The notes under the pieces are model-generated. The model was not told the DNA's origin. It did no database searches and saw only the letters and a list, made by a program, of their open reading frames with translations. The translations under genes and the position numbers were made by a program. Positions 1,174 to 20,955 of a DNA stretch of 23,558 nucleotides are shown here, piece by piece (the stretch's first letter is position 1; each line of letters begins with the position of its first letter). The DNA comes from Methanosarcina sp. (GTDB lineage: Archaea; Halobacteriota; Methanosarcinia; Methanosarcinales; Methanosarcinaceae): NCBI GenBank assembly GCA_017883485.1, contig JADGNM010000001.1, positions 1 to 23,558 of the forward strand. Reading direction: 5' to 3'.

Positions 1174-1437
1174 GTTTGACAATTCTCAAAAGATAGAAAA
1201 ATTAGCACTTGAATAGAACCAAATGTTTATAAGGATTTAATTGTTTGATATTACCAAAATATACGACATAATATGAGGCGAAAAGATGACGAAACATTCA
1301 CCAACAAAATTACATTAAGTGGTATAGTCTTCAGATAATCGGAGTTTTATATAGTAGTTGGTTTCGAAAAGTTTAGGGAAGCAGATCCAACTTCAGAAGA
1401 GTCTAGTCATAACAATGTATACAAATTATCAAAATTA

Positions 1438-1551
1438 GATCGTGTCAGCGAGTTACTGAAAATCATAAACTCAAGATGCTCTCTACATTCTCCCAAAAAT
1501 GGGTAATATACTTGTTTTTTAAGTTTTAATCAATAACTCACTGACACGACC
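1438..1551. mobile_element. 114-bp MITE-like element, copy A
   Basis: The ends form terminal inverted repeats: left GATCGTGTCAGCGAGTTACTG, right (reverse complement) GGTCGTGTCAGTGAGTTATTG, i.e. about 18 of 21 matching. The interior has no open frame of note. A relative of the same length, with similar ends and interior (both share 'ACTTGTTTTTT' near the right end), lies at 7325-7438. This is the structure of a miniature inverted-repeat element moved by a transposase encoded elsewhere. It ends only 19 bp before the ATG of the UbiA-family gene, so it forms most of that gene's upstream region and may influence its expression. The parent insertion sequence is not identified. Confidence 0.65.
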
Positions 1552-1570
1552 CAATAAAACGGGAGAAAAA

Positions 1571-2424
1571 ATGATTAAAGAAATTATTATATCAATGCGC
1601 CCCAAACAATGGTACAAAAATTTAGTATTGTTTGCTGGGATTTTTTTTTCAGCTAACCTTCACAATCTTCATATGTTGATTATTGTACTCTTCTCATTCA
1701 TTATATTCTGTATATTATCTGGGTCTGAGTATATTATTAATGATATAATGGACAAAGAAAGGGACAGAATTCATCCCAAAAAATGCAATCGTCCAATTTC
1801 TTCAGGGAAATTAAATGTATTACACGCCCTCATTTTTGTGGCACTTATGCTCTTAGCGGCCTTAGCTGGGGCTTACTTAATAAACGTTCAATTCTTTGTG
1901 ATTTCCTTAACTTATTTCCTCTTGATCATTTGCTACTCATCATATCTGAAGCACATTGCTATTGTCGACGTCCTTACGATTTCTATTGGTTTCGTGATAA
2001 GGGCAGTTGCGGGCTGTTTAGCAATAGGAGTTTTCGTTTCTCCTTGGCTGATTATATGTGCCTTTTTGATCGCACTTTTCCTTGCACTTGGCAAAAGAAG
2101 GCATGAACTTATATTGTTGGAAAATGGCGCAAGTAACCACCGTAAAGTACTTGATGATTTTTCGCCAGAGATACTGGATAAAATGATAACTATTGTTACA
2201 AGTGTATTAATTATGTCTTATTCTCTTTATACATTCCTTACAAATAATACCTTTATGATGGTGACGATACCCATAACAATTTACGGGATATTCAGATATA
2301 TTTTACTAATTAATTCCAAAAATGCAGGGGGGAACCGGAAATGTTGTTTAAGAATAAGGGAATGATAACCTGTATGGTTTTATGGGCAATCGCAATAGTG
2401 GGAATACTTTATATAAAAATATGA
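1571..2424 (+). CDS. UbiA-family polyprenyl-phosphate phosphoribosyltransferase-like protein, frameshifted near the 3' end
   Basis: A polytopic membrane enzyme of the UbiA superfamily. Residues 54-65 contain N57-D58-x-x-D61-x-x-x-D65, the Mg/diphosphate-binding NDxxDxxxD motif, preceded by 'MRPKQWYKN'. This combination is typical of decaprenyl-phosphate phosphoribosyltransferase-like members, which use PRPP and a polyprenyl phosphate, rather than of quinone or ether-lipid prenyltransferases. The ATG at 1571 has GGGAG upstream. As read, the frame ends at 2365 after an untypical 'NRKCCLRIRE' tail. If a seventh G is placed in the G6 run at 2327-2332, the frame continues as GEPEMLFKNKG and a last hydrophobic helix, stopping at TGA 2422-2424; that tail fits the family. 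So there is either a sequencing error or a real slippage frameshift. The next gene starts 36 bp after the restored stop. Substrate assignment is inferred. Confidence 0.72.
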
Positions 2425-2460
2425 TATTCTGGCTTGAAATATATAGAAAGAGAAAAAAGT

Positions 2461-3105
2461 ATGGCAAAATTTGACCTCCATATACACTCAAGTTACTCTT
2501 CAGATGGCTTGATGAACCCTAAAACAATTGTAAAAATTGCGATAAAACGCCATCTCTCTGGAATTGCCGTTACAGATCATAATACGATAAAGGGGGGTCT
2601 AAAAGCAAAAAACTGTGAAACTAAAGATTTTAAGGTAATAATAGGTTCAGAGATTATGACTGACCTTGGGGAAGTCATTGGACTTTTCCTTTCAGAAGAG
2701 ATAAGATCCAGAAATTTGACAGACGTAATATACGAGATCAAAAATCAGAATGGGATTATCGTTATCCCCCATCCCTTCGATAAAATGAGACATTCAGCAC
2801 TTAACCCAAGTGACGAGTTTGCCCGTCTAATCGACTGCATAGAAGGTTTCAATTCCAGATGCATTTTCCAAAAGTACAATGAGAAGGCTGTTGAATATGC
2901 TAGTAAACATGACTTACCACTTGTCGCTGGAAGCGACGCTCACTTTGGAAATGAGATCGGAAACGCTGGCATCATCACTGAATGTGAGGATCTGAGAGAA
3001 GCGATAATGAGAAACAACATTGATATATTCGGAAAACGATCAATGCTTGTTAACCATGCTTTTACCAAGGGACTGAAAAAATGGCGAAAAATAAAATATG
3101 GATAA
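2461..3105 (+). CDS. PHP-domain metal-dependent phosphoesterase
   Basis: Chosen start is ATG 2461 (MAKFDLHIHS...), which puts the first metal motif at the usual N-terminal place; an upstream in-frame TTG at 2434 adds nine unneeded residues. The protein (about 214 aa) shows the PHP signatures in order: D-L-H-I-H near the start, 'VTDHNT', 'GSEI', 'IPHPF' and 'AGSDAHF', all metal ligands of a trinuclear site. PHP proteins of this size hydrolyse phosphate esters (histidinol-phosphatase/RNase AM-like folds). The gene overlaps the next by 25 nt and follows the UbiA-family gene by 36 bp. One attractive job is removal of the 5-phosphate from a polyprenyl-phosphoribose phosphate made by that enzyme; this is inference from context only. 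Confidence 0.75.
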   Translation: MAKFDLHIHSSYSSDGLMNPKTIVKIAIKRHLSGIAVTDHNTIKGGLKAKNCETKDFKVIIGSEIMTDLGEVIGLFLSEEIRSRNLTDVIYEIKNQNGIIVIPHPFDKMRHSALNPSDEFARLIDCIEGFNSRCIFQKYNEKAVEYASKHDLPLVAGSDAHFGNEIGNAGIITECEDLREAIMRNNIDIFGKRSMLVNHAFTKGLKKWRKIKYG

Positions 3106-4037
3106 TTATCCTTTTTACAATTGCAGTATATGTCATAATGGGAGTTTATGCCGATTTTGGGAAATTATCTCTCACAATATCTTATTTTCAATGGCAGTAT
3201 TTTTTATTCATGATTATTCTCACTACGATAGGATACTTAATTAGGTGCATCAAATGGAATCTTTTCCTTAAAACAGCAGGTGTACATCTCGATTATAAGG
3301 AAAATCTCTTTGTATTTTTCAGCGGACTTTCCATGATCGTAACTCCAGGTAAGTTAGGTGAAGTGTGGAAAAGCTGGCTCATTCGAGATATTTCTGGAGA
3401 CGAATTAAGCAAAACTCTTCCCGTTGTAATTATGGATAGAGTTACTGACGTGATAAGTCTAATATTTCTCTCTCTCATAGGTATTTTTTACTACAGAGAA
3501 GGGATTTCTGTCCTTATTATTCTCTCTGCAATCTGCATAGGATTTTATATAGCCATTAGATCCAAGACAGTTGTTGAAAAGATGAAAATATTTCTAGAAA
3601 AAAGATTCAGTAAGTATACAAATGATATGCAGTTGATGCACGAAACTATGAATAAAATAATGGCGCCGAAAGTCTTGGTGTCACTTTCCCTGTTGAATGC
3701 TCTTGCGTGGTTTTTCGAGTGTTTGGGGCTTTATTCCGTGATCATCGGCTTTGGACAGTCTATAGATATTTTGCTTGCAACGTTTATATTTAGCTTTTCT
3801 TCCTTAATAGGAGGAGTAAGTATGGTTCCTGGAGGCATAGGAGTGGCAGAAGCAGGAATATCTGGTCTTTTGGTTATGAATGGAATTTCTCCTGCATTGT
3901 CTGTTGGAATAGCCCTGATTCTCCGACTAGGGTCATTCTGGTATGGAGCAATTTTAGGATTTACAGTCTATGCGTTGTTCAAAAAGAGAATTATGAAAGA
4001 TAAAAATAAACTTTTTTATGAGGTTGAAAATGTCTAA
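3081..4037 (+). CDS. Lysylphosphatidylglycerol synthase/flippase-like transmembrane protein
   Basis: A 318-residue, multi-helix membrane protein of the LPG-synthase TM / UPF0104 'flippase-like' family. Recognisable family segments are 'GYLIRCIKWNLFLKTAG', 'TPGKLGEVWKSWLIR', 'VVIMDRVTDVISL' and the C-terminal 'MVPGGIGVAEAGISGL'. It lacks the soluble lysyl-transferase domain found in MprF, so lysine transfer is not supported; relatives are thought to move lipids or lipid-linked precursors across the membrane. The ATG at 3081 lies inside the end of the PHP gene (25-nt overlap), and its end overlaps the DUF362 start by 8 nt, so translation is probably coupled. In context it is a candidate flippase for a lipid-linked sugar. 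Confidence 0.78.
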   Translation: MAKNKIWIIILFTIAVYVIMGVYADFGKLSLTISYFQWQYFLFMIILTTIGYLIRCIKWNLFLKTAGVHLDYKENLFVFFSGLSMIVTPGKLGEVWKSWLIRDISGDELSKTLPVVIMDRVTDVISLIFLSLIGIFYYREGISVLIILSAICIGFYIAIRSKTVVEKMKIFLEKRFSKYTNDMQLMHETMNKIMAPKVLVSLSLLNALAWFFECLGLYSVIIGFGQSIDILLATFIFSFSSLIGGVSMVPGGIGVAEAGISGLLVMNGISPALSVGIALILRLGSFWYGAILGFTVYALFKKRIMKDKNKLFYEVENV

Positions 4038-5157
4038 AGTTGCAGTGCTAAAAACACATCCTAATACTGTTATAAAGGATTATTCAAAATTGATGAAACT
4101 CGTAGAATATGGGAACTTTATACCAAAACAGAATAAAACAATAATAAAAATAAACCTCTCCTGGTCTCTCTTTTACCCTGCCTGCTCAACTCCCCCTTGG
4201 CAACTGGACGGGGTATTAAAAACACTTCGAAATGACGGATATAGAGATATTGTAGGAGTGGAAAACCAAACAGTGGTAACCCACCCATGGAAGGGAGCTT
4301 ACTTGAATAAATGGCTTCCAATCCTCAAGAAATCTGACACGGAGTTTAGACCGTTAACAGATGTGAAGTGGGTACCCTACAGTCCGAAATCTGAAATGCT
4401 TGCAATGTACGACATTTTTGAAGAAATAATCGTTCCAGAGACTTTTATCGGAAGCAACGTTATCCACCTCCCAACAGTAAAAACCCATGGACACACAACT
4501 ACTACAGGTTCTATGAAAAATGCATTTGGAGGCCTTATACCCAAAAGAAGACACCATGCTCATAAGAAAATTCATGAGGTGCTGGTAGACCTCCTATCTA
4601 TTCAGAAAGAGATTCATAAAGGCATTTTTGCAGTTATGGACGGGGCCATATGTGGAAACGGGGCTGGCCCAAGGACAATGGTTCCATACATAGGAAACCT
4701 GATTCTGGCAAGTGATGATCAGGTTGCCATAGATGCAGTCGCTGCAAAGATGATGGGTTTTGATCCTCAAAAAATAGATTACATCCGCATCGCTCACGAT
4801 ATGGGATTGGGAATGGGCGACATTGACCAGATAGAAATTGTAGGGATGGAAAAAAACGAGTTTAATAATATCAATTTTGGCTTTGAAGTCAGTAAAAGCC
4901 CAGTTATCAAATGGGACCAGAGGATTCGTAAGGGCACATCAAATGTAAAGTGGCTACATTCTTTATTATTTCGCTCCCCCATTTTCCGAATGTTTATTTT
5001 TGCATCCGAAACTTATCATGATAAACTGTGGTATCCTACCACAGGAAAAAAGAATATTGATGAAGTTATGAAAACTGAATGGGGGAAACTTTTTGAGAAA
5101 TACGAATATGGTGATTACCCTGCATATACAGAAGTAAAGGAGTGGAATCCATATTAA
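4030..5157 (+). CDS. DUF362-domain protein
   Basis: Start taken at ATG 4030 (MSKVAVLKTH), with GAGGT at 4020-4024 as ribosome binding site; an ATG at 4018 is also in frame. The protein of about 375 aa matches the DUF362 pattern: 'IIKINLSW' near the N-terminus, 'VIHLPTVKTHGHTTTTGSMKNAFGG' in the middle and 'ASDDQVAIDAVAAKMMGFDP' later, the latter two being the conserved P-x-x-K-x-H...K-N-x-x-G and D-x-V-A-x-D-x-x-A blocks. Many DUF362 proteins carry a ferredoxin domain; none is seen here, so it is the short form. Biochemical role unknown. It is the last member of the overlapping cassette beginning at 1571. Confidence 0.8.
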   Translation: MSKVAVLKTHPNTVIKDYSKLMKLVEYGNFIPKQNKTIIKINLSWSLFYPACSTPPWQLDGVLKTLRNDGYRDIVGVENQTVVTHPWKGAYLNKWLPILKKSDTEFRPLTDVKWVPYSPKSEMLAMYDIFEEIIVPETFIGSNVIHLPTVKTHGHTTTTGSMKNAFGGLIPKRRHHAHKKIHEVLVDLLSIQKEIHKGIFAVMDGAICGNGAGPRTMVPYIGNLILASDDQVAIDAVAAKMMGFDPQKIDYIRIAHDMGLGMGDIDQIEIVGMEKNEFNNINFGFEVSKSPVIKWDQRIRKGTSNVKWLHSLLFRSPIFRMFIFASETYHDKLWYPTTGKKNIDEVMKTEWGKLFEKYEYGDYPAYTEVKEWNPY

Positions 5158-5504
5158 TAGTTTTCATGGAGAAATCCCAAGTGAATTTCAAACCTTAACT
5201 CCGCCATCTATAGGGAATAAGTAAATCCAAATCATGTTGTATCCTGAAATGATTTCGCATATTCAAGATTTTTCAACATTTCAATCTTTGATACAATATC
5301 AAGCAGCCCAATGGAGTCAAAAGTATAAGGAATTTCAATTTCATCGTAGTTCTATAGAATGAGCACAAAATAAGAAACCAATCTGAAATAGCAGTATGAT
5401 AGTGAGTCATCTGTACATGAATATAATTGTGATATAAGAATTTCAAAAAGCGAAATAATTTCGGGATAAAACAACATTTAAAAATACAGAATAATCAACT
5501 GGAG
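5158..5504. other. 347-bp spacer, possible short relic ORF
   Basis: No solid gene. A 42-codon frame at 5234-5362 (+) begins MLYPEMISHIQDFSTFQSLI and may be the start of a lost protein, possibly a transposase, but I cannot identify it. The rest is AT-rich and fits an upstream region for the glycosyltransferase that follows. Confidence 0.4.
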
Positions 5505-6962
5505 TTGAGCTTTACGCCTAAATATTATGAAAATTATAAATTTTATCTATTGGCATGCTTACTTATTGGTACATTAATAAGACTTTATGGATTGAATATA
5601 CAAAGTTTATGGCTTGATGAACTATACACAATCGTATATTCATCGAGTGGCATTCCTAGTTTATGGGAACATATAATAATTGATGTTCACCCTCCTCTAT
5701 ATCCAGTATTCATGTTTTATTGGTTCAAAATATTTGGCACTTCAGATATTTCCGCACGTTTACCAAGTGCAATTGCTGGAGTTCTATCATTATTAGCAAT
5801 GTATCACTATTCCAAGAAAGTTTTTGGCCAGTATGTTTCTACTTCAGCCACCATTTTATTATCTCTTACATATGCAGGAGTTTATTATTCACAGGAAGCC
5901 AGATCATACAGTTTCCTGATTTTGTTATCTATTGTTTCTACTTTTAGTTTTATGAAAATAGTATCAAACGAAAAAACTTCAGTGAGAGACTATATAATTT
6001 ATACTATTGTATGTATACTAATCGCATACGTTCATTATTTCGGTCTGCTTTTGATAGAATTCCAATTCATTTACCTGTTTTTAAATGCAGCCTTCCACAA
6101 TAAACAAGAATTCTTAAAAGTGGTATTGATTCAATTTTTATTGCTTATTTCATATATTCCTTGGATTAATGTAATGATAAATACTTTAAACAAAAATGGA
6201 GGGGGGAAATTTTGGATTCAGAAACCTGGTCTGCTTCTCATCGCACAATTTTTCGGTTTGGTCATATATCCGGGTGTAATTAGTATCTTAATTGCATTTG
6301 TATTTTTAATGATTATTCCATTAGCGTTAGATTATGAAAAATTTAAGAGCAATCTATTATCTACCCTAAAGGCAATGAACTTAAAATCACCTTTGTTCAT
6401 TTTATTTTATTTGGCAATAGGTACCTTAATAGCGGGTTTTATAATTTCCCAAAGTACCCCTATACTAACCGCCAGGAATTTATTAACTTTATCTCCGATT
6501 ATTTATATCCTGATATCCGTATGGGTTTCAATGTGCAGTAAACTGTCAGGATATAAACAGAATGCCTACATACTTACTATTTGTATTGTTTGTTTTGCTC
6601 TTGTTTCTCCTCAATTTTATTCACCAAATAAAGAGCAATGGAGAGAAAGTATAAACTACGCAGTAGAGAATTCAGACAACCAGACCACGTTTGTTACTTT
6701 GGGGTATACGGATTATTACAAATATTATTTTGATCAGATTGAAATTCCAAAAAATTCCGTTATCATAAATAAGGGAGATAAAGATAATATCACGAACATT
6801 TACACACAGATGATCGATTTACATAAAAATAAATTGATAATTCTAGGTGCCCATAAGCATAAGCTAACCGAAAATGAGCAGAACTTCCTAGAAAGTAAGT
6901 CCAAGAGTCATGAGGTAAAGGAATTCGTATTATCAGTGGTATACATATACACATTTGATTAA
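5505..6962 (+). CDS. GT39-type (ArnT/PMT-like) membrane glycosyltransferase
   Basis: A 485-residue polytopic membrane protein. The first extracytoplasmic loop has 'SLWLDELYT' (D38-E39) and 'IIDVHPPLYP' (D60, H62), the acidic catalytic motif and D-x-H-P-P motif of GT-C enzymes such as ArnT and bacterial PMT-like proteins. These use polyprenyl-phosphate-linked sugars on the outer membrane face. 'YYSQEARSYSFLIL' is another family landmark, and a soluble C-terminal part follows about ten helices. The TTG at 5505 directly follows GGAG with almost no spacing, so the start is uncertain; the frame is open upstream to 5433 but without an ATG. Very AT-rich. It may use the lipid-linked sugar from the 1571-5157 cassette (inference). 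Confidence 0.78.
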   Translation: MSFTPKYYENYKFYLLACLLIGTLIRLYGLNIQSLWLDELYTIVYSSSGIPSLWEHIIIDVHPPLYPVFMFYWFKIFGTSDISARLPSAIAGVLSLLAMYHYSKKVFGQYVSTSATILLSLTYAGVYYSQEARSYSFLILLSIVSTFSFMKIVSNEKTSVRDYIIYTIVCILIAYVHYFGLLLIEFQFIYLFLNAAFHNKQEFLKVVLIQFLLLISYIPWINVMINTLNKNGGGKFWIQKPGLLLIAQFFGLVIYPGVISILIAFVFLMIIPLALDYEKFKSNLLSTLKAMNLKSPLFILFYLAIGTLIAGFIISQSTPILTARNLLTLSPIIYILISVWVSMCSKLSGYKQNAYILTICIVCFALVSPQFYSPNKEQWRESINYAVENSDNQTTFVTLGYTDYYKYYFDQIEIPKNSVIINKGDKDNITNIYTQMIDLHKNKLIILGAHKHKLTENEQNFLESKSKSHEVKEFVLSVVYIYTFD

Positions 6963-7324: not shown

Positions 7325-7438
7325 GATGTGTCCACGAGTTACTGAAAACAGTGAGCACAAGAATCTCTCTGCATTTTCCTCAAATGTGAGGTTAGTACTT
7401 GTTTTTTCAGAATTGATCAACAACTCAAGGACGCGACC
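7325..7438. mobile_element. 114-bp MITE-like element, copy B
   Basis: Same length as the element at 1438-1551 and alignable with it along its whole extent, with the left end reading 'CACGAGTTACTGAAAA' and the right end 'CAACTCAAGGACGCGACC'. The terminal inverted repeats are less perfect than in copy A (roughly GTCGYGTCC-N-YGAGTTRYTGA). No coding content. It lies between the end of the GT39 gene and the end of the - strand glycosyltransferase. Together the two copies bracket about 5.8 kb with five genes. Confidence 0.6.
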
Positions 7439-10304: not shown

Positions 10305-11204
10305 TTGAGTTCCAGCGAACAATCAATAAAAGATTATTTACCTTTCCTTTATATGGCCGGACTGCTTGTGATTGTGCAGATCATTGCACTATTTTTGTCC
10401 AGACCCATGGAAGCTAGCGGGATGCAGGCTTTTGATGATCCAACCCAGGTATCTAATTCTATTTACTATATAGTATTGATCCTGGCTTTCACCCTATTTG
10501 TCTTGATAGCAATAAAGAAGGATATGAAATGGGTAATTAGCCTTCTCATATACTTTGCCATAATAAGCACTCTCTATTACGTATTTCTCTCCCTGCTCAA
10601 TCTCTTTTCGTTCCTTACCGAGCTTGAGGCTATCATTGCCTCAATTCTGGTATCTGCAGGAGTGACAGTCTTGCTTTACAAATATCCCGAGTGGTATGTG
10701 GTTGACTTTGTTGGAGTTTGCGTTGCAAGTGGAGTCAGTGCCCTGTTAGGAATTTCCCTTTCGATTATCCCGGTCGTAATTCTCCTGGTGCTGCTTGCGA
10801 TCTATGATGCCATCTCGGTATACAAGACAAAACATATGATAACCATGGCCGAGGGAATGATGGATCTGAAGCTTCCCATCCTGTTCGTAATCCCAAAACA
10901 CTCGAAGTATTCATTCTTGCATGAAAGCTTTAAAAAGGGGGAAAAACGTGAAGCCTTTTTCATGGGTCTAGGGGATGCCGTTATGCCCACTCTGCTGGTA
11001 GTTTCGGCAAATGTTTTTATGCACAGCAGTGGAGGAATCTCGTATCCAGTACTCGGGGCAATGCTTGGCACTCTTGCAGGCTATGCAGTACTTTATGCTT
11101 TTGTGATGAAAGGAAAACCACAGGCAGGTCTTCCCTTCCTGAATTCTGGAGTAATCCTGGGATTTTTTATCGGTGTCCTGCTCTCAGGGGCATCAATAAC
11201 TTGA
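10305..11204 (+). CDS. Presenilin-like intramembrane aspartyl protease
   Basis: About 299 residues with roughly nine hydrophobic segments. Two catalytic aspartates are visible: D168 in 'AIYDAISVYKTKHM' (the YD motif of TM6) and D224 in 'MGLGDAVMPTLLVV' (the GxGD motif of TM7). 'QAGLPFLNSG' near residues 274-283 sits where the PAL motif of TM9 is expected. This is the arrangement of archaeal presenilin/signal-peptide-peptidase homologues, which cleave membrane helices within the bilayer. The TTG start at 10305 is favoured by AAGGAGTT seven bases upstream, and no nearby ATG fits. A hydrophilic loop between TM6 and TM7 is present. Substrates unknown. It is flanked by non-overlapping genes and appears to be transcribed alone. 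Confidence 0.88.
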   Translation: MSSSEQSIKDYLPFLYMAGLLVIVQIIALFLSRPMEASGMQAFDDPTQVSNSIYYIVLILAFTLFVLIAIKKDMKWVISLLIYFAIISTLYYVFLSLLNLFSFLTELEAIIASILVSAGVTVLLYKYPEWYVVDFVGVCVASGVSALLGISLSIIPVVILLVLLAIYDAISVYKTKHMITMAEGMMDLKLPILFVIPKHSKYSFLHESFKKGEKREAFFMGLGDAVMPTLLVVSANVFMHSSGGISYPVLGAMLGTLAGYAVLYAFVMKGKPQAGLPFLNSGVILGFFIGVLLSGASIT

Positions 11205-12466: not shown

Positions 12467-14074
12467 ATGCCAGTATTTATTGAAATTAAGAATTTAACCG
12501 TAGATCTCAACGGTCTTAAGGCACTGAAAAATGTAAATTTAAGTATCAATGAAGGGGAAATTGTCGGAGTTCTGGGAAAAAGCGGATCAGGGAAAACTAT
12601 CCTGATGCACGTGCTGCGCGGGACCGAGTCGTTTGAAAATATCTCAGGTGAAGTTATTTATCATCTGGCTCGCTGCGAGAAATGCGGATTCATAGATCGC
12701 CCCAGCAAGATCGGCCAGAAATGCCCTGTCTGTGGAGAGGCGCTTGAAGCTTTTGAAGCTGATTTCGTAAAACTTTCCCTTTACGACCCTATAAGGAAAG
12801 ATATTGCCAAAAGAATTGCAATCATGCTGCAGCGGACCTTTGCCCTTTATGGAGACGAAAGAGTTATTGTAAACGTCATAAACTCCCTGAATGAAATTGG
12901 GTATAAGGGGCAAGACTCCATGAGAAAGGCAGTTGAGCTGCTGGATGAGGTTAATCTGAATCACCGCATGATGCATGTCGCAAGGGAACTTTCAGGTGGA
13001 GAAAAACAGAGAGTTGTACTTGCAAGACAACTTGTAAGAAATCCTTTGCTCCTTTTAGCTGACGAGCCCACCGGTACCCTTGATCCCATGACTGCAAAAC
13101 TGGTTCATAGTGCTATGATTAAGGCAGTGAGAAATTATAATATGAGTATGTTCCTTACTTCCCACTGGCCTGAAGTTATTGAGCAGCTGGCGGACAAGGC
13201 AATTCTGCTCGAAAACGGAGAAGTAGTTGTAGAAGGGAACCCGCTTGAAGTCTCTGCAACCTTCATGAAGAATGCATGCATGGTAAGGCAGGAAAAAAGT
13301 GCCATTATCGGAGAACCTATAATCCGGGTAAGAGACCTTTCGAAGCGTTATATCTCGGTAGACCGTGGAGTAGTAAGAGCAGTAGATAAGATCTCTTTTG
13401 ATGTAAATGAAGGAGAGATCTTCGGGCTTGTCGGGGTCAGTGGAGCAGGCAAAACTACTACCTCCAAGATTCTGATGGGAATTCTACCTCCTACATCCGG
13501 AGAAGTTGAGGTTAGAGTAGGAGATGAATGGGTTGATATGACGCAGTACGGAGTGGAAAATAAAGGACGAGCTACAAAGTATATGGGATTCCTGCACCAG
13601 GAATACGGCCTTTATACTCACAGCTGCGTAATAGATAACCTCACCGAATCTATCAGCCTTGACCTACCTTTCGAGCTTGGTGTCCGAAAAGCTATAATAA
13701 CTCTTAAAGCTGCAGGTTTCGAAGAGGATAAAGCAAAAGCTATTTTATCCAAGATGACTGATGAGATGAGTGAAGGGGAACGGCATAGGGTTGCACTTGC
13801 ACAGGTCCTTATAAAAGAACCGAGAATCGTTATCATGGATGAGCCTACAGGTACAATGGACCCGATTACCAAGATATCGGTCTCAACCTCAATTCTCAAA
13901 GCTAGAGAAGAGATAGGAGAAACCTTTGTTATAGTTTCTCACGACATGGATTTTGTAAATGAAATATGTGACCGTGTCGCTCTTATGCGTGGTGGGAAGA
14001 TTGTAGATATAGGTAAACCTCAGAACGTACTCTCTCATCTCACTGAAGAAGAAAGGATCAAAGCTGCAGAATAA
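12467..14074 (+). CDS. atwA: Methyl-coenzyme M reductase activation ATPase, component A2
   Basis: A 535-residue soluble protein with two ABC ATPase domains in tandem. Domain 1 has Walker A GKSGSGKT (37-44), signature LSGGE (175-179), Walker B with ADEPTG (198-203) and H-loop TSH (231-233). Domain 2 has GVSGAGKT (323-330), MSEGE (434-438) and MDEPTG (457-462). Inserted in domain 1 is a C-x2-C...C-x2-C metal site (C70, C73, C86, C89), characteristic of component A2. There are no membrane segments. In methanogens A2 supplies the ATP-dependent step that lets MCR reach the active Ni(I) state of F430. The start is fixed by GGAGG eight bases upstream. It heads the marker-gene block and ends 48 bp before marker 3, so co-transcription is likely. 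Confidence 0.93.
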
Positions 14075-14122
14075 ATATAAATATGCAGCCACCTCTTAGT
14101 ATGGAAAAAACATTAAAATGAG

Positions 14123-15688
14123 GTGCCGATTACGAGTAATGAGATCAGCGTAGAGGTGAACGGTCAAAAATACACTTTGTCTGAAGGCTCTACCCTTGGA
14201 GACGCCCTTAAAATTTCCAGAGTTCCCTCTAATGTAGGTACGGCGATAGGGATTCTTAAAGAGACTGCTGAGAAAAGGAAGGAACTTATTACCGAGTACG
14301 CTATCAATACTCCGAAAGGGGAATTCAGGATAGAGATCAATAACCCTGAGTTACCCTCAGGAAAATTATGGGCTGAGCATTTTAAAGAATATGAAGGGAA
14401 ACCTGTTCATTGGGCAAGCTCTGAGGCTCTGGCCTTTGGACCTTTTGAAGCCGAGATTAAACCTTCGCGTGGAATCAGGAGTTTCAAAGAGTTCGATGTT
14501 CTTTTTGGGGCCGGTGGTTTTGATCCCCGAAATACTCATTTAATCTTTTCCCGAAAAAGACATTCAGCGGAGTATGGAATTCCTGAGGACGGTGTTTTTG
14601 CGGCAGTTGTAACCGGGAGAAATGTTTTATTCAAACTCTCGAGAGAAGACGTTATTCTGAATATCGAGCCGATTATAGAATGGGAACAGCTCTCGGAAAA
14701 TATCTGCACAACTGACCTCTCTACCCCTCTTGAAGACGGAAACGGCATATTTACTTATTTTGAAGTGGAGCTTTCCAGAAACGCTCCCATCGGAGCAGAA
14801 CAATTCTACGCCCTGGCCCGTGAAGGGAGAATTGATGTGGATGTGATTACCAGCTCATTCATATCGGATGACGGCTTGAAAGGAGAGCCTGTCCCTTACG
14901 AAAACTTTGAGCCGAGAAGCGAAGGTGCCATTTCTATCCGCACAGTTGGATATGGAGCAGGCAGGATATATATCTCCAAAGAAGAACGTCCCTCAAGTCT
15001 CGTGCATTCGGTTGTAGGGCATGTGACCGGAGGCATTGAACTCATCAAGCTTGCAGAAAAGGGACAAAAACTATCAGCCGAATGCCTCCCGCCTCAGATA
15101 GTCCTTCTTGGGCACAGTTTCCAGGAGGCAGAGCCTGTTCTTTCTTCCATAGGAGTTGGACTTGTAAAGGACGGATACACCGGAGAGGATGCGGTAATTG
15201 TCAGGCAGGACCCGCCAACAACGCTGGAGATTCTTGGAGAAGCAAAAGTAACTGCCTATGCGGTGTCAAGAGCACAACTCATTGAAATCGAACTTCACCC
15301 TGAAAAGGCCCCGAAGTCCGTGGATTTCTTCCGCCACGCTCTCGGACTTAAAACAAAAATAGTTGGAAAGCTGCCTGTATACATGATATATGATGATACT
15401 TATCTCTTTAAAACAGAAAAGGAAGTTGTGAAATATAAAGAGATCCTTCCGGAGAATACGCCCACAAATAAAGTACTTGCCGGAGAAATAGGGATCACGA
15501 ACCAGGCGGCAAAGAGAATGGGGACCATAGGAGTCAGACTAATAGATGACGACCTCTTCGGACCTACAGGAGAGAAGTTTTCCTCAACCAACATTATTGG
15601 CCGGATTATCGACCCGGAGAGATTAATTGGCATCAAGGAAGGAGATGCTATTTACATAAGTGAAGTTGGGCAGGTAAAACGCAAGTAA
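14123..15688 (+). CDS. Methanogenesis marker protein 3 (cyclophilin-like, UPF0288)
   Basis: A 521-residue protein recognised as marker 3, a subunit of the MCR activation complex (A3a). The N-terminus 'VEVNGQKYTLSEGSTLGDAL' (11-29) resembles a ubiquitin/ThiS-like beta-grasp strand pattern. Residues about 210-315 follow the cyclophilin layout: 'YFEVELSRNAPIGAEQFYALAREG', then 'EGAISIRTVGYGAGRIYIS', then 'HSVVGHVTGGIELIKLAEKGQKL'. A second, weaker copy begins 'LIEIELHPEKAPKSVDFFRHALG' (386-408). The active-site residues of isomerases are not evident, so a structural rather than catalytic role is likely. The start is a GTG at 14123; a seven-codon frame (ATG 14101, TGA 14119-14121) ends just before it, and no separate ribosome binding site is clear. 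Confidence 0.9.
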   Translation: MPITSNEISVEVNGQKYTLSEGSTLGDALKISRVPSNVGTAIGILKETAEKRKELITEYAINTPKGEFRIEINNPELPSGKLWAEHFKEYEGKPVHWASSEALAFGPFEAEIKPSRGIRSFKEFDVLFGAGGFDPRNTHLIFSRKRHSAEYGIPEDGVFAAVVTGRNVLFKLSREDVILNIEPIIEWEQLSENICTTDLSTPLEDGNGIFTYFEVELSRNAPIGAEQFYALAREGRIDVDVITSSFISDDGLKGEPVPYENFEPRSEGAISIRTVGYGAGRIYISKEERPSSLVHSVVGHVTGGIELIKLAEKGQKLSAECLPPQIVLLGHSFQEAEPVLSSIGVGLVKDGYTGEDAVIVRQDPPTTLEILGEAKVTAYAVSRAQLIEIELHPEKAPKSVDFFRHALGLKTKIVGKLPVYMIYDDTYLFKTEKEVVKYKEILPENTPTNKVLAGEIGITNQAAKRMGTIGVRLIDDDLFGPTGEKFSSTNIIGRIIDPERLIGIKEGDAIYISEVGQVKRK

Positions 15689-15740
15689 TCCGAAATACAA
15701 TACACGGTAAAAATGAAATAATGACTAAGATAATAAATAT

Positions 15741-15750
15741 AATATATAAA
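15741..15750 (+). promoter_or_regulatory. Candidate internal TATA box before marker 6
   Basis: AATATATAAA lies in the 161-bp gap between markers 3 and 6, about 100 bp before the marker 6 ATG. It suggests that markers 6-5-15-17-7 can be transcribed separately from atwA and marker 3. The gap also has TCTCC (15823-15827) facing GGAGA (15837-15841), which could fold over the ribosome binding site. Confidence 0.4.
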
Positions 15751-15849
15751 CGAAGTAAATGTATTATACACAGCCGCAGTAATAGTTAAGTGGATTTGAG
15801 TATAAACTTATCGCAGGTGAAGTCTCCCGAAGCTTAGGAGAGACGAAAG

Positions 15850-16293
15850 ATGACGGAAACAAAAAAAGAAGAGATTACAAAATACATTGTAATCAGTTCG
15901 GATGAGGTGCTGCCTTCAGATGCAGCTATGATTATTTATGAGTCAGAGTTTCCGGTTACGGTAAAAGAGACCTGTTTTGGACTTATCGTAACAGGACAGA
16001 AAGAGGATGTCCAGGCAGTGGTTGAAAAAATCCGGCAGCTGGATAAGAATCATATTTTTGTAAAAGACAGGGGCTTTCCTGCAGGAGACGAGAGGCGTTG
16101 CCGTGCAAGCCGTGGAGGGGGTCCTAGGCCTGGTTTCCACTTCCTAAGGGAAGAAGTGAAGATGCTTCCTGCTATAGGGGCTGCACTTGATGAACTTGAA
16201 GCAAATGAACCTGTAAAAGAAAAACGCAAGGAGAAATGCAGGCTTAATGTTTCAGATTTGGAAAAAGTTATTGAGAAAGAGCTTGCGAGGTGA
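15850..16293 (+). CDS. Methanogenesis marker protein 6
   Basis: A 147-residue soluble protein recognised as marker 6 from its conserved stretch '[20 protein letters not shown]' followed by '[18 protein letters not shown]'. The N-terminal half, '[22 protein letters not shown]' and '[22 protein letters not shown]', looks like a small alpha/beta domain. It is found almost only in methanogens and related MCR-bearing archaea; its exact role is not known. The ATG at 15850 is preceded by AGGAGAG. The C-terminus is lysine/glutamate-rich. It stops at 16293, four bases before marker 5. Confidence 0.87.
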
Positions 16294-16297
16294 GGTT

Positions 16298-16801
16298 TTG
16301 GCAAAGGTCTTCATTTACCCTATAAACAGTCTAATTCTGGCTGACCTGGTTGAGCGCTTCGGGCATAAACCCCTTACCATGATGAACCAGATAAGAGAAA
16401 AAGTTACGAATATTAGCTTGGATTCTCCCCCAATAAATATCACTCCTGAAGATCCAAAATTAGGGCTTCGATATGCTGCAATTGAAGTTCCTCCAGGGGT
16501 AAGGGGCAGGATGGCCCTGATAGGTCCCCTTATCGAAGAAGCAGAAGCTGCAATTATAGTTGAAAACCCACCGATTAACTTTGGGTGCATTGGCTGTAGC
16601 CGCACAAATGAACTGGCGAAATATTTGATCCGCTCAAAAGGGGTCCCGGTTTTGGAAGTAAAGTATCCTGAATCCGACGAAGAAGCCCGTGATTTTGTGA
16701 ACAAAATCGCAGCATTTCTGGAGTCACTGCCTAAAGAAAAACAAGAAGAAACGGGAAAGGTTAAAAAGGAAAAGCCTCTGGAGCAGGAGATTAAAAAATG
16801 A
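16298..16801 (+). CDS. Methanogenesis marker protein 5
   Basis: Start chosen at TTG 16298 (product begins [21 protein letters not shown]), with GAGGTG at 16287-16292 as ribosome binding site. The upstream in-frame ATG at 16247 would add 17 residues overlapping marker 6 and is less likely. The protein is about 167 aa, with the marker 5 landmarks '[29 protein letters not shown]' and '[13 protein letters not shown]'; the C-x2-C pair is notable. The lysine/glutamate-rich tail ([20 protein letters not shown]) is probably disordered. Its last four bases (ATGA) overlap the start of marker 15. Function not established. Confidence 0.86.
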
Positions 16802-18045
16802 GCGCTGAAGAAGCCGGACTTGTCAAAATTGCGCTGGTGTCCTGCGGCTCTGAATATTCCGGAGTTCAGCCTGAGTTTGATGAAGCCGCAGCTAAGGTTA
16901 ATGCGAAGTTTGTTTACCCTGAGATTGACGTCGCATCGCTAGATACTATAGGGAGGGATTTCGGGCTTGAGGTCGCAAGCGGAGACCTTAGGCTTATGCT
17001 GGCACGTGCAAAAGCTGTTGTCGAAGGCACAACCAATGTGGACGGAGTTTTCATTACCACATGTTTCCGCTGCGCCGAAGGGGCTATTGTTCGCAATGAG
17101 ATCAGAAGGTATATTCACAAGCATTCAAACATTCCTGTAATCAGCTATTCATTTACCGAACGCACCAGCGCAGGTACCCTGCTCACTCGTCTGGAAGCCC
17201 TGACCACAATTGTCAGGCGCAGGCACCTCCTTACAAGAGAAACCCAGACAGGACTGACTGCAGGAATAGACTCCGGGTCGACAACTACCAAGGCAGTAGT
17301 CATGAGAGACAACAAAATAATAGGTAAAGGCTGGGTGCCCACAACGAAAGTTCTTGAGAGCGCAGAAGAAGCATACTCTCTCGCCCTGAAAGAAGCCGGG
17401 GTTTCCAGGGAAGAAATCCAGGCCCTTGGCACTACAGGATACGGGCGTTTTCTTGTGGGGAACCATTTCAAAGCCCAGCTTATCCAGGAAGAAATCACAG
17501 TTAACTCAAAGGGAGCAGTCTATCTTGCGAACAAACAGAAGGGCTCGGCAACTGTTATTGATATAGGCGGGATGGACAATAAAGCAATCTCGGTTGAAGA
17601 CGGGATTCCTGGAATGTTTACAATGGGAGGGATCTGCGCCGGAGCCTCAGGGCGTTTCTTTGAAATGATCGCAAAACGTCTTGGTATAGATATTACCGAG
17701 CTCGGAGCCCTGGCAGTCAAAGGCATGCACGAAAATGTATCCATGAACAGTTACTGCATAGTTTTCGGGATCCAATCTCTCGTAAATTCCCTTGCCAGAG
17801 GAGCTACTCCGGAAGACGTGGCGGCTGCAGCTTGCTACAGTGTGGTAGAACAGATTTACGAGCAGCAGTTGCAGGAAGTGGATGTAAGGGAGCCATTGAT
17901 TCTTGTAGGCGGTTCTTCCCTTATTGAAGGAGTTCCAAAAGCTCTCGGAAGACTTCTCAAGATCGATGTCCTTGTGCCCGAAAACTCCCACCTGATTGGG
18001 GCTGTAGGAGCAGCTTTGCTTGCTTCCGGCTTTGTGGAGGAGTGA
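16798..18045 (+). CDS. Methanogenesis marker protein 15 (BadF/HgdC-type ATPase)
   Basis: A 415-residue soluble protein. Residues 1-150 form a marker-specific domain with '[19 protein letters not shown]' (C89, C92). From 154 on it is an ASKHA ATPase of the BadF/BadG/BcrA family: phosphate-binding loop [12 protein letters not shown] (156-167), '[12 protein letters not shown]' (209-220), '[14 protein letters not shown]' (251-264), '[13 protein letters not shown]' (277-289) and 'NSYCIVFG' (317-324). C280 and C320 match the cysteines that hold the intersubunit [4Fe-4S] cluster in dehydratase and benzoyl-CoA-reductase activators. This suggests ATP-driven low-potential electron transfer, although its partner in methanogens is not proven. 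The ATG overlaps the marker 5 stop. Confidence 0.9.
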
Positions 18046-18052
18046 GGAAAAG

Positions 18053-18649
18053 ATGGATTTGCTTGAGATCTTCGTTGTCGAGTCCGCAATTGCTTCGGAG
18101 CAGGAATTTTACAGGAAGATTATCGAGGACAACCTCGCAAGTCTCAAGCTTGCCCCGGCAATAGGAAGAATAAAGGTAGTGCTAAGACCTGAAGATTCCC
18201 TCTTTCAAATGGCGATAATTCTCAGAAACGTGGGTACCAAAGTAACGACAAGTGACATTGCCGATATTGAAGCGAGACCAGTTGCCCATGAGATTCAAAT
18301 TTTAATCAAAAAAGAGCAATATATTCCTGAGCTTCTAGGCAAACTCTGGGAACGTTACGGGAAAGCGAACATAAGTCAGCCGGACCGCTGGACTGTAGCC
18401 ATACATACTGATAAGGCAGAGAAAGAAGCGGCTTTTCTTGGAGAAATGCAGATCGCAGATCCCAGACACAGGCTCCATGAAAATTTAGTTGATTTTGCAA
18501 TCAGGGTTACTCCGGAAGGTTTCAGAGTCCGATACCATCTATATAAGGGCAACAACTTTATTTTTGTAGCATCCGAAGAAGCATTAAAACATGAATGGAT
18601 CGAAGAGGCAGAGGTAATGCTTAAAGAACTGATGGGAGGGAAGAAGTAA
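18053..18649 (+). CDS. Methanogenesis marker protein 17
   Basis: Start at ATG 18053 (MDLLEIFVVES), seven bases after the marker 15 stop, with GAGGA just upstream; an upstream in-frame ATG at 18020 lies inside marker 15 and is rejected. The product is about 198 aa, soluble, with conserved segments 'LAPAIGRIKVVLRPEDSLFQMAI' and 'PEGFRVRYHLYKGNNFIFVASEEALKHEWIEEA'. No catalytic motif is visible to me. Marker 17 is a known component of the MCR activation complex with markers 3 and 7 and McrC. Marker 7 starts two bases after it stops, so the two are made together. Confidence 0.88.
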   Translation: MDLLEIFVVESAIASEQEFYRKIIEDNLASLKLAPAIGRIKVVLRPEDSLFQMAIILRNVGTKVTTSDIADIEARPVAHEIQILIKKEQYIPELLGKLWERYGKANISQPDRWTVAIHTDKAEKEAAFLGEMQIADPRHRLHENLVDFAIRVTPEGFRVRYHLYKGNNFIFVASEEALKHEWIEEAEVMLKELMGGKK

Positions 18650-18650
18650 G

Positions 18651-19583
18651 ATGGCAATACTCCTACCCTATCTTTATACTGGCGGTGTCTACAAACATGG
18701 GCTTTTAATCGAGTTGCTGGAAGATCTGGGAGGCTACATTATTCAGAAAGTAGTTACCGGGACTGAAGTCAACCTTATAATGCTTATCCCTGAAAAGGAT
18801 ATCCCGATCGTAAAAAAGCAATCAGACGAACTACTTGGAGTCATGACAGAAGCTCCTCTTACAGGCGTGGAGATTGCAGTCATTTCGCCGACCCTTGCTT
18901 CACATCATCTTCCTCATTCAGCCTGTGACGTAGCAGAGTATCTCCGCCACCCCGGAGCTAATACAAATATGATAGGGCTTGCCAGAGGTATGGGGCGCAG
19001 GGTATCCCTATCCATGGACTATGAAAGAAGACTTATCAATGAACATGATATTGCGGTTTTTACATTCGGGTCTTTCCGTGACTGCATTATTAACAAGAAG
19101 CCAAAGCTCTTCGAGGGTATCGAAATACCTATTGTGGTGACAGGTGGCCCTGACCTGAAGACCGAAGAAGTTTCCGGAGCGGACCTCTATGTTGGAAATA
19201 TTGGAAGGACCTCTCACAGGTTAAGGAAAACAGAAGAGGTTAACGCCCTCGAAAAGCTTAATGAAGAGATTGGAAAGATAGCTGACAATATTCGTAAAGA
19301 GCAGGCAAAAGACCCCCTTGCGGTTATTCCTGCCAGGGCCATGAAAGAGATCGAAAATCAGGTCCCTGAAATCCAAACTGTGCTTTCTCCTGCCCCTCTT
19401 ACCCTTCAGCTTAATGGGGTCAGGGTCAAACTGCCCTATGACGAATTCCATGAAAAAATTGAAAATCTGGAATTTGACGAGGGAGTTATCCTTTCCGAAC
19501 TTGCAAATGTTTCCAGATCAAAAATAAAAAATTATATATTGATAAAAATCAAATCTAAGTCTGACGTCGGTTTTGCAATTTGA
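18651..19583 (+). CDS. Methanogenesis marker protein 7
   Basis: A 310-residue soluble protein. Recognised as marker 7 from 'LLPYLYTGGVYKHGLLIELLEDLGGYI' at the N-terminus, 'SPTLASHHLPHSACDVAEYLRHPGANTNMIGLARGMGRR' (about 84-124), with H/C residues that could take part in cofactor binding, and 'VFTFGSFRDCI' and 'VVTGGPDL'. Marker 7 is a subunit of the MCR activation complex, where recent structural work places unusual iron-sulfur clusters; which residues here bind them is not something I can show. The ATG at 18651 has GGGAGGG about ten bases upstream. Last gene of the marker run; the following 138 bp hold no gene. Confidence 0.88.
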   Translation: MAILLPYLYTGGVYKHGLLIELLEDLGGYIIQKVVTGTEVNLIMLIPEKDIPIVKKQSDELLGVMTEAPLTGVEIAVISPTLASHHLPHSACDVAEYLRHPGANTNMIGLARGMGRRVSLSMDYERRLINEHDIAVFTFGSFRDCIINKKPKLFEGIEIPIVVTGGPDLKTEEVSGADLYVGNIGRTSHRLRKTEEVNALEKLNEEIGKIADNIRKEQAKDPLAVIPARAMKEIENQVPEIQTVLSPAPLTLQLNGVRVKLPYDEFHEKIENLEFDEGVILSELANVSRSKIKNYILIKIKSKSDVGFAI

Positions 19584-20265: not shown

Positions 20266-20955
20266 ATGCATGAAATTAGATTGTGCTTTGCACTGCTTCT
20301 GATGGTAACTTTTCTACCTATCCCTTCGATTGCCTCTGAAACGAGTCCTGAAAGGCTTTCAGATCATCCCTGGGATCATTCTCCGATTACAGTATATATA
20401 GATGATAAAAATGTGCCTGCCGATTATAGTCCCACCTATTACGCACAGATAAAAAAAGCTCTTGAATATTGGGAAAAAGGCGGAAACGGAAACCTGAAGT
20501 ACACTCCTGTTTTTCGGATTGTGGACACGAAAGAAGCCGATATCAGGATAAAATGGGTGGAAAACCTGGAGAATATCGAAGGCGCTCCTTCCGGAGTGGC
20601 AGGCTATGCAAGTCCCGCGGTGGCAGACGGGCGATTTGTAAGGGTAGATATCGTGCTTGAAGCCGGAAACTATCAGGGAAAGTCCTGGGTCCAGTATGGG
20701 GATGCGACAATGTTAGGTATTGCGAAACATGAGCTTGGGCATGCCGTTGGGTTGGGGCATAGTAATGACAGGCGGGATATTATGTATCCCCAGTATGAGC
20801 AGAGAGACAACATAAACCCCATTCTGCTGAACAAATACGGTTCCATGCTGCAGGCAGCAGCTTTCATCGCTCTGGCGCTTCTTCTTTTCCTTGGTGTAAG
20901 CTGGCAGCGCAGCAGGAAAAAGAGGAAAGCACTTGAGGATGAATACTTAAAATAG
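20266..20955 (+). CDS. Membrane-anchored matrixin-like zinc metalloprotease
   Basis: A 229-residue protein with an N-terminal signal peptide (hydrophobic 7-23, then S-E-T). The mature part has 'PITVYIDDKNVP' and 'IKKALEYWEKGG', common at the start of matrixin domains, the zinc motif HELGHAVGLGH (H155, E156, H159, H165) and a downstream Met-turn 'DIMYP' (M173). A hydrophobic helix (about 194-211) followed by a basic stretch 'RSRKKRK' forms a C-terminal anchor with a short cytosolic tail. It is therefore a surface-displayed zinc peptidase. No propeptide cysteine switch is visible. Probably a single-gene transcript. Confidence 0.87.
   Translation: MHEIRLCFALLLMVTFLPIPSIASETSPERLSDHPWDHSPITVYIDDKNVPADYSPTYYAQIKKALEYWEKGGNGNLKYTPVFRIVDTKEADIRIKWVENLENIEGAPSGVAGYASPAVADGRFVRVDIVLEAGNYQGKSWVQYGDATMLGIAKHELGHAVGLGHSNDRRDIMYPQYEQRDNINPILLNKYGSMLQAAAFIALALLLFLGVSWQRSRKKRKALEDEYLK

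Follow-up and report, generated by a model that had tools for sequence, protein, structure and literature searches.

What could a row of closely spaced enzyme and membrane-protein genes in a methanogen make, and on which side of the membrane would the product be used? The question is raised by the 23,558-nucleotide stretch of Methanosarcina DNA analysed here (the window), a single contig (G000:C364) in a draft genome of that genus that totals 2.83 Mb. In it a UbiA-superfamily gene is followed by genes for a PHP-family phosphoesterase, a membrane protein of the LPG_synthase_TM family (LPG_TM) and a DUF362 protein, and the start of a PMT_2 glycosyltransferase gene lies about 350 bp past the end of DUF362. 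A preliminary description of the sequence had named these families and described the first four genes as overlapping or closely spaced, and the open reading frames (ORFs) and Pfam matches bear this out: the PHP and LPG_TM ORFs overlap, as do those of LPG_TM and DUF362, the gap between UbiA and PHP is shorter than 100 bp, and all five genes pass the Pfam cut-offs (Table 1). We propose, with a probability of about two in three, that the cassette makes a polyprenyl-phosphate-linked pentofuranose from phosphoribosyl pyrophosphate (PRPP) and exports it; the wider statement, that the module makes an exported lipid-linked pentose, is one we hold with good confidence. The computed ground for this proposal consists of family membership, a tree, site residues, conserved linkage, part-for-part substitution in relatives and a predicted fold.

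For the UbiA protein, the NCBIfam model of decaprenyl-phosphate phosphoribosyltransferase (NF008977) gave 252.1 bits, which passes its cut-off of 234, and the protein remained under the cut-offs of the sister models NF008978 (187.6 of 207) and NF008976 (149.7 of 474). Outside these models of the DPPRS enzymes (decaprenylphosphoryl-5-phosphoribose synthases) the protein scored 158.1 bits with PRK08238 and at most 51.6 bits with all others; a haloarchaeal relative (L044) reached 221.4 bits with NF008977. The closest solved structure in a PDB sequence search was the DPPRS of M. tuberculosis (8j8j, E 1.5e-34), with the next enzyme at E 1e-6. A UbiA tree of 61 proteins, with several long branches flagged among the non-DPPRS and the bacterial rows, had a branch supported at 100/100 that split 44 DPPRS-type rows (5 of them bacterial, the window among the 44) from 17 other archaeal UbiA proteins, and 4 of the 9 scanned among the latter passed the NCBIfam cut-off for geranylgeranylglycerol-phosphate geranylgeranyltransferase. 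The PRPP site of the mycobacterial enzyme Rv3806c comprises R22, K28, Y70, N73, D77, K87, R90, Q135, Y138, K143 and Y157 (PMC10994848), and 9 of these 11 residues are identical in the window protein (R10, K16, Y54, N57, D61, K71, R74, Y122 and K127). Three positions separate the two groups, K28 (44/44 DPPRS-type proteins vs 0/16 others), Y70 (44/44 vs 3/16) and K87 (44/44 vs 0/16), with L158 excluded from the count, and in Rv3806c these three contact the 5-phosphate or the pyrophosphate (PMC10994848). Y157 is replaced by F141, as it is by phenylalanine in 43 of the 44 DPPRS-type rows. Judged from its sequence, the window UbiA protein is very probably a phosphoribosyltransferase; the placement with DPPRS and away from the ether-lipid prenyltransferases, seen in the tree, in NF008977 and in the site residues, is the one that the preliminary description had proposed to check.

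Several points weigh against this assignment. Q135, which touches the ribose O3 in Rv3806c (PMC10994848), is I119 in the window, and K208, matched by K192, is a lysine in just 19 of the 44 DPPRS-type rows and so is little informative. A run of six G at 2327-2332 also marks the point past which the window gene leaves the frame of its relatives; this affects its last ~10 residues, and the product is without the last helix found in relatives; the gene is in frame in the five relatives compared, and a different frame up to 2424 still resembles their last helix. This break, seen in one draft contig, may be an error or real.

If the four genes serve one pathway they should keep company elsewhere, and the preliminary description had named such co-occurrence as a check. 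A close UbiA (E<=1e-20) was found in 23 of the 392 phylum-sample genomes (26 at E<=1e-10), in 3 of 59 genomes of the class of G272 and in 13 of the 111 from the family to which the window belongs, and a haloarchaeal UbiA query had matches in 21 of 242 class-sample genomes and in 13 of the 18 of one family therein; these samples overlap one another. The module has a scattered rather than a universal distribution. Members of the close DUF362 subfamily (matches listed with at least 51% identity, some being fragments) occurred in 15 of the 392 genomes, 11 of which are among the 23 with a close UbiA, that is, in 11/23 UbiA genomes vs 4/369 others (Fisher p 2e-12, without correction for phylogeny), and one of the four genomes without a close UbiA, G278, has DUF362-LPG_TM-PHP cut by a contig end (L127).

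For the neighbourhoods of UbiA, we reduced 60 loci to 56, the window included, by dropping L058, L061, L100 and L104 as duplicates of L035, L036, L052 and L062, and to 55 for the counts of PMT_2 and gene order by also dropping L054, a near-copy of L056. UbiA matches below 300 bits, which are copies either broken or truncated (L047, L066, L050, L051, L130 and L135 among them), were left out. Neighbours were sought within 6.5 kb at thresholds that we chose (100 bits for PHP, EamA and HAD, 300 for LPG_TM and DUF362, 350 for SDR, the short-chain dehydrogenase/reductases), the profiles having been made from the very loci to which they were applied; weaker SDR proteins near DUF362 were excluded as another kind of SDR (L037 with 116, L055 with 262 and L105 with 266 bits). 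The set covers 24 haloarchaeal loci, part of all haloarchaeal UbiA matches, and holds some contigs that are probably misbinned: L053 (titled Nanohalarchaeota), L054 (Thermococcus) and L035/L058 (Archaeoglobus; UbiA identical to that of L057).

Among the 55 neighbourhoods the order UbiA-PHP-LPG-DUF362 was found 9 times, DUF362-UbiA-PHP-LPG 4 times, UbiA-LPG-DUF362 twice, and UbiA-DUF362-PHP-LPG and UbiA-PHP-DUF362 once each; a PHP-UbiA order scored for L043 stems from an overlong ORF start. The genes stay together in many other archaea, and neither this check nor that of the UbiA placement went against the preliminary description. Their order varies, and since shuffled order with kept company speaks for joint function rather than inherited order, these data point to cassette genes that function jointly. 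Against this stand L040 and L064, which carry UbiA without any other cassette gene nearby, and 11 of the 56 loci with no PHP near UbiA, some of them cut by contig ends. One Methanosarcina genome (G595:C2) has two UbiA-PHP-LPG_TM-DUF362 modules about 12 kb apart, L101 and L102, which are counted as two loci of one genome. In the ANME-1 genome G064 a broken UbiA lies close to an EamA-type gene (L047/L066), and another contig carries a broken DUF362 beside PHP (L136); the module of this genome is apparently decaying.

The relatives are further informative in that single parts are exchanged for others of matching kind. In L048 (G217) the UbiA gene is followed by a HAD phosphatase-GtrA fusion, an SDR epimerase and a PMT_2 protein, with no PHP nearby. 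A small EamA-type protein takes the place of LPG_TM in L032, from another Methanosarcina, and in L041, whose protein has no Pfam match itself and clusters with that of L032; LPG_TM (at least 300 bits) is present in 44 of the 56 loci, EamA in 2 and both in none, and a flippase-like gene of some sort (LPG_TM, EamA or GtrA fusion) is near UbiA in 47. In haloarchaea, an SDR epimerase lies near UbiA in 21 of 24 loci and DUF362 in 0/24 (annotated records L178, L183), and the neighbours of DPPRS on bacterial plasmids are an FAD oxidoreductase with an SDR (L179), PAP2 proteins (L180, L181) and an SDR (L182). Over the 56 loci, 22 have DUF362 alone, 22 SDR alone, none both and 12 neither; the lack of any overlap has a chance of 2.6e-7 if the loci are independent, and the haloarchaeal rows form one clade. 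Among the loci with neither are L114, whose SDR is split into two ORFs, and some that are truncated by contig ends. The make, dephosphorylate, flip and transfer logic put forward in the preliminary description is supported by these part-for-part replacements, and the chemistry itself we infer.

Two features of these relatives tell against reading DUF362 and SDR as interchangeable epimerases. Nine haloarchaeal SDR rows fall in one tree clade, and the exclusion, resting on that clade and on L048, amounts to two independent archaeal cases at best. Moreover, L032, L041, L052, L123 and L124 are without a nearby DUF362 or SDR, although PHP is present. Such modules fit an epimerase step that is optional, as has been published for the O1 and O2 systems of Citrobacter (PMC11127046).

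For the PHP protein, residues D14, H18, H49, E73, H113, D168 and H170 (numbered from the TTG), which we take to be metal ligands, are kept in at least 95% of 47 proteins. The LPG_TM protein is predicted to be a flippase from its context only, and PDB sequence searches with LPG_TM and with PMT_2 gave no match. The preliminary description had also assigned the GT39 transferase to the pathway; the gene is indeed present after DUF362, and it proved loosely linked: 12 of the 55 loci, the window among them, have a PMT_2 homologue (at least 400 bits) no farther than 6.5 kb from UbiA. PMT_2 was rejected as part of the cassette core on this count.

The DUF362 protein, which the preliminary description had left without a job, belongs to the module, and its job is now best read as sugar epimerisation; that it is a pentose epimerase we regard as an even chance. 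Its predicted fold is that of the cofactor-binding part of LarA, aligned mostly over residues ~8-294, and among the first 50 Foldseek rows for a second model are 4nar, 9q3j and 9q3k, other racemases appearing only in the VIA-align list. DUF362 and LarA share the Pfam clan CL0471, and DUF362 has been used as an outgroup of LarA (PMC11770544). H153, K163 and H178 are invariant in 60 of 60 DUF362 proteins, and in two weak profile alignments H153 and K163 (spacing 10) and H178 align with H174, K184 and H200 of the LarA encoded in the window's genome, so that K163, H178 and H153 would correspond to the lysine that tethers the nickel-pincer nucleotide, the histidine that binds nickel and the catalytic His174. 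H85 is found in 41 of 43 module DUF362 proteins and in 0 of 14 distant ones; its correspondence to His108, the second catalytic residue of LarA, is uncertain. LarB and LarC were over the cut-off in each of the 25 genomes tested, whether or not these carry the DUF362 module; this is only a necessary condition for the nickel-pincer nucleotide in DUF362. LarB as a regular neighbour of DUF362 was rejected: of the loci examined, only L034 and L072, an overlapping copy of it, have the two side by side.

Much weighs against the likeness to LarA. Foldseek gave marginal E-values, 6e-4 to 7e-3 for the first model and 9e-5 to 1e-3 for the second, and the C-terminal part of the model differs from LarA; no LarA_N (PF09861) match was found up to E 10, DUF362 being the sole Pfam match. 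Probabilities from hhalign for DUF362 with LarA were 1.8, 14 and 7.9%, the 1.8% coming from a narrow DUF362 alignment, and the register of the three residues was not reproduced in the third, narrow profile alignment. A PDB sequence search gave no relevant match for the DUF362 profile and none for a single DUF362 protein, and the LarA substrates described in PMC11770544 and PMC12611868 are 2-hydroxy acids. The specific idea that DUF362 proteins are hydride-transfer epimerases of polyprenyl-phosphate sugars using the nickel-pincer nucleotide or a like cofactor, with cousins acting on lipid-linked sugars made by GT2 enzymes, is a doubtful one.

A less probable but serious alternative to an epimerase keeps the pathway and has DUF362 oxidise, reduce or otherwise tailor the lipid-sugar, or carry a cofactor, any epimer then coming from an enzyme elsewhere. 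The family is broad: some DUF362 match is present in 162 of the 392 phylum-sample genomes. It corresponds to COG2006. In other settings DUF362 has been reported with iron-sulfur domains (PMC5742341, PMC7955657), which speaks against the epimerase as well, and for a bacterial COG2006 protein a redox role was inferred from context (PMC4510573). Distant members (29-31% identity) are found with GT2 enzymes, LPG_TM and an FAD-binding protein in L138, L139 and L187, the FAD-binding protein being FAD amine-oxidase-like in the first two and the content of L187 being read from its ORFs alone; L138 and L139 showed neither UbiA nor PHP, L139 starting at a contig end. These clusters, perhaps a second lipid-linked sugar system, suggest that DUF362 acts on more than one kind of lipid-linked sugar. 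Modules with neither DUF362 nor SDR can also be counted for a DUF362 that is no epimerase, but the predicted LarA fold, the invariant H153/K163/H178 and the absence of any locus with both proteins among the 56 argue for epimerisation.

The product could instead be plain polyprenyl-phospho-ribose without an epimer, serving to ribosylate the surface or staying in the membrane as a glycolipid, as would suit L052, L123 and L124, which have no nearby DUF362 or SDR, and the bacterial O1 system, which uses unaltered ribose (PMC11127046); with DUF362 in the module in the window and 21 more of the 56 loci, and SDR in 22, we find this distinctly unlikely. That UbiA is an ordinary prenyltransferase for ether lipid, quinone or heme, with unrelated neighbours, has its superfamily membership on its side and is highly improbable in view of the 100/100 branch apart from the 17 other archaeal UbiA proteins, the kept residues for the 5-phosphate and pyrophosphate, and the conserved gene linkage; an ether-lipid or quinone role was rejected on tree, family models and site residues.

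For the exported pentose, we infer the activities, their order, the lipid, the sugar and the acceptor as follows. UbiA would join PRPP and polyprenyl phosphate to polyprenyl-phosphate-ribose-5-phosphate, and the PHP enzyme would take the 5-phosphate off the lipid-linked ribose. DUF362 may then invert one ribose hydroxyl by removal and return of a hydride, which would give arabinose at C2 or xylose at C3, a step that would be absent in some relatives. LPG_TM would flip the lipid-sugar across the membrane, and an external GT-C enzyme, PMT_2 here and others elsewhere, could transfer the pentose to a surface glycan. The glycan carrier in archaea is phosphorylated dolichol (PMC4476749).

Two bacterial systems offer a comparison. 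The mycobacterial route to decaprenyl-phospho-arabinose uses the DPPRS Rv3806c, the phosphatase Rv3807c, DprE1/DprE2, Rv3789 and the Emb/Aft transferases; the cassette shares with it a DPPRS-type UbiA with most PRPP-site residues kept and separate slots for phosphatase, epimerase, flippase and GT-C. Unlike that route, it has next to UbiA a PHP protein in place of an Rv3807c-type phosphatase and DUF362 in place of DprE1/DprE2, LPG_TM for the SMR protein and presumably dolichyl for decaprenyl phosphate. In Citrobacter youngae, a three-component pentofuranose system combines a PPPRS-PRP protein (ORF15), a MATE protein (ORF14), GT136 (ORF12) and an SDR epimerase (ORF13), and the cassette resembles it in its predicted PRPP-derived lipid-linked ribose donor, flippase-like protein, candidate GT-C enzyme and optional epimerase (PMC11127046). 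The archaeal cassette differs in having PHP for HAD, LPG_TM for MATE and DUF362 for SDR, whereas L048, with its HAD phosphatase and SDR, is the locus most similar to C. youngae. To the LarA superfamily (nickel-pincer nucleotide racemases and epimerases, PF09861) DUF362 is linked by predicted fold and, in two weak profile alignments, by residue register; its would-be substrate, a lipid-linked sugar, sets it apart.

Table 1. Features of the cassette region in the window.
Feature	Coordinates	Strand	Details
UbiA-superfamily, DPPRS/PPPRS-type polyprenyl-phosphate phosphoribosyltransferase (predicted)	1571..2365	+	264 aa; Pfam UbiA 98.1 bits; C-terminal end out of frame
PHP-family phosphoesterase, predicted 5-phosphatase	2461..3105 (ATG 2461; ORF open from TTG 2434)	+	PF02811 50.2 bits, PF13263 (PHP_C) 41.5 bits
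LPG_synthase_TM/flippase-like membrane protein, predicted lipid-sugar flippase	3081..4037	+	PF03706 134.8 bits, TIGR00374 101.4 bits
DUF362 protein, predicted LarA fold, predicted pentose epimerase	4030..5157 (in-frame ATG also 4018)	+	Pfam DUF362 91.4 bits
PMT_2/GT39 glycosyltransferase of GT-C type, loosely linked, possibly the acceptor transferase	5505..6962	+	PF13231 49.9 bits
MITE-like (miniature inverted-repeat transposable element) element of ~110 bp, inverted ends, upstream flank of cassette	1436..1555		
Second copy of the MITE-like element, downstream flank of cassette	7328..7438		76% identical

The MITE-like element, sought in 8 genomes, has 5 matches in the window's genome and 15 in G594 but no match in G595 or G095, and the copies that flank the cassette are perhaps a hint of its mobility. 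Elsewhere in the window, an archaeal presenilin/signal-peptide-peptidase (SPP)-like membrane protease lies at 10305-11204 (Pfam, 382 bits), a run of methanogenesis genes at 12467-19583 (component A2 (met_CoM_red_A2), Mmp3 and markers 6, 15 and 7) and a Matrixin-like metalloprotease at 20266-20955, in which a signal peptide and a membrane segment at the C-terminus can be seen by eye. The GT4, SPP and methanogenesis-marker genes further downstream were rejected as cassette core.

In the literature covered, which took in few subscription journals or preprints, we found no archaeal module of PHP, LPG_TM and DUF362, no archaeal lipid-linked pentose and no tested DUF362 function, only context-based hints (iron-sulfur, COG2006 redox); the bacterial pathway is known, and new would be an archaeal version with PHP, LPG_TM and DUF362 exchanged in. 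Our prediction is that scattered archaea, methanogens and haloarchaea included, hold a PRPP-derived lipid-linked pentose route that has so far been bacterial, with three parts exchanged. DUF362, a large family of unknown function, would gain with this a concrete, testable job and cofactor, as a candidate single-protein alternative to DprE1/DprE2. If the nickel-pincer reading is true, DUF362 would do on lipid-linked ribose what mycobacterial DprE1 and DprE2 do together, LarA chemistry would extend from small hydroxy acids to lipid-linked sugars, a large family would receive a function, and a pentofuranose surface chemistry would be shown for archaea.

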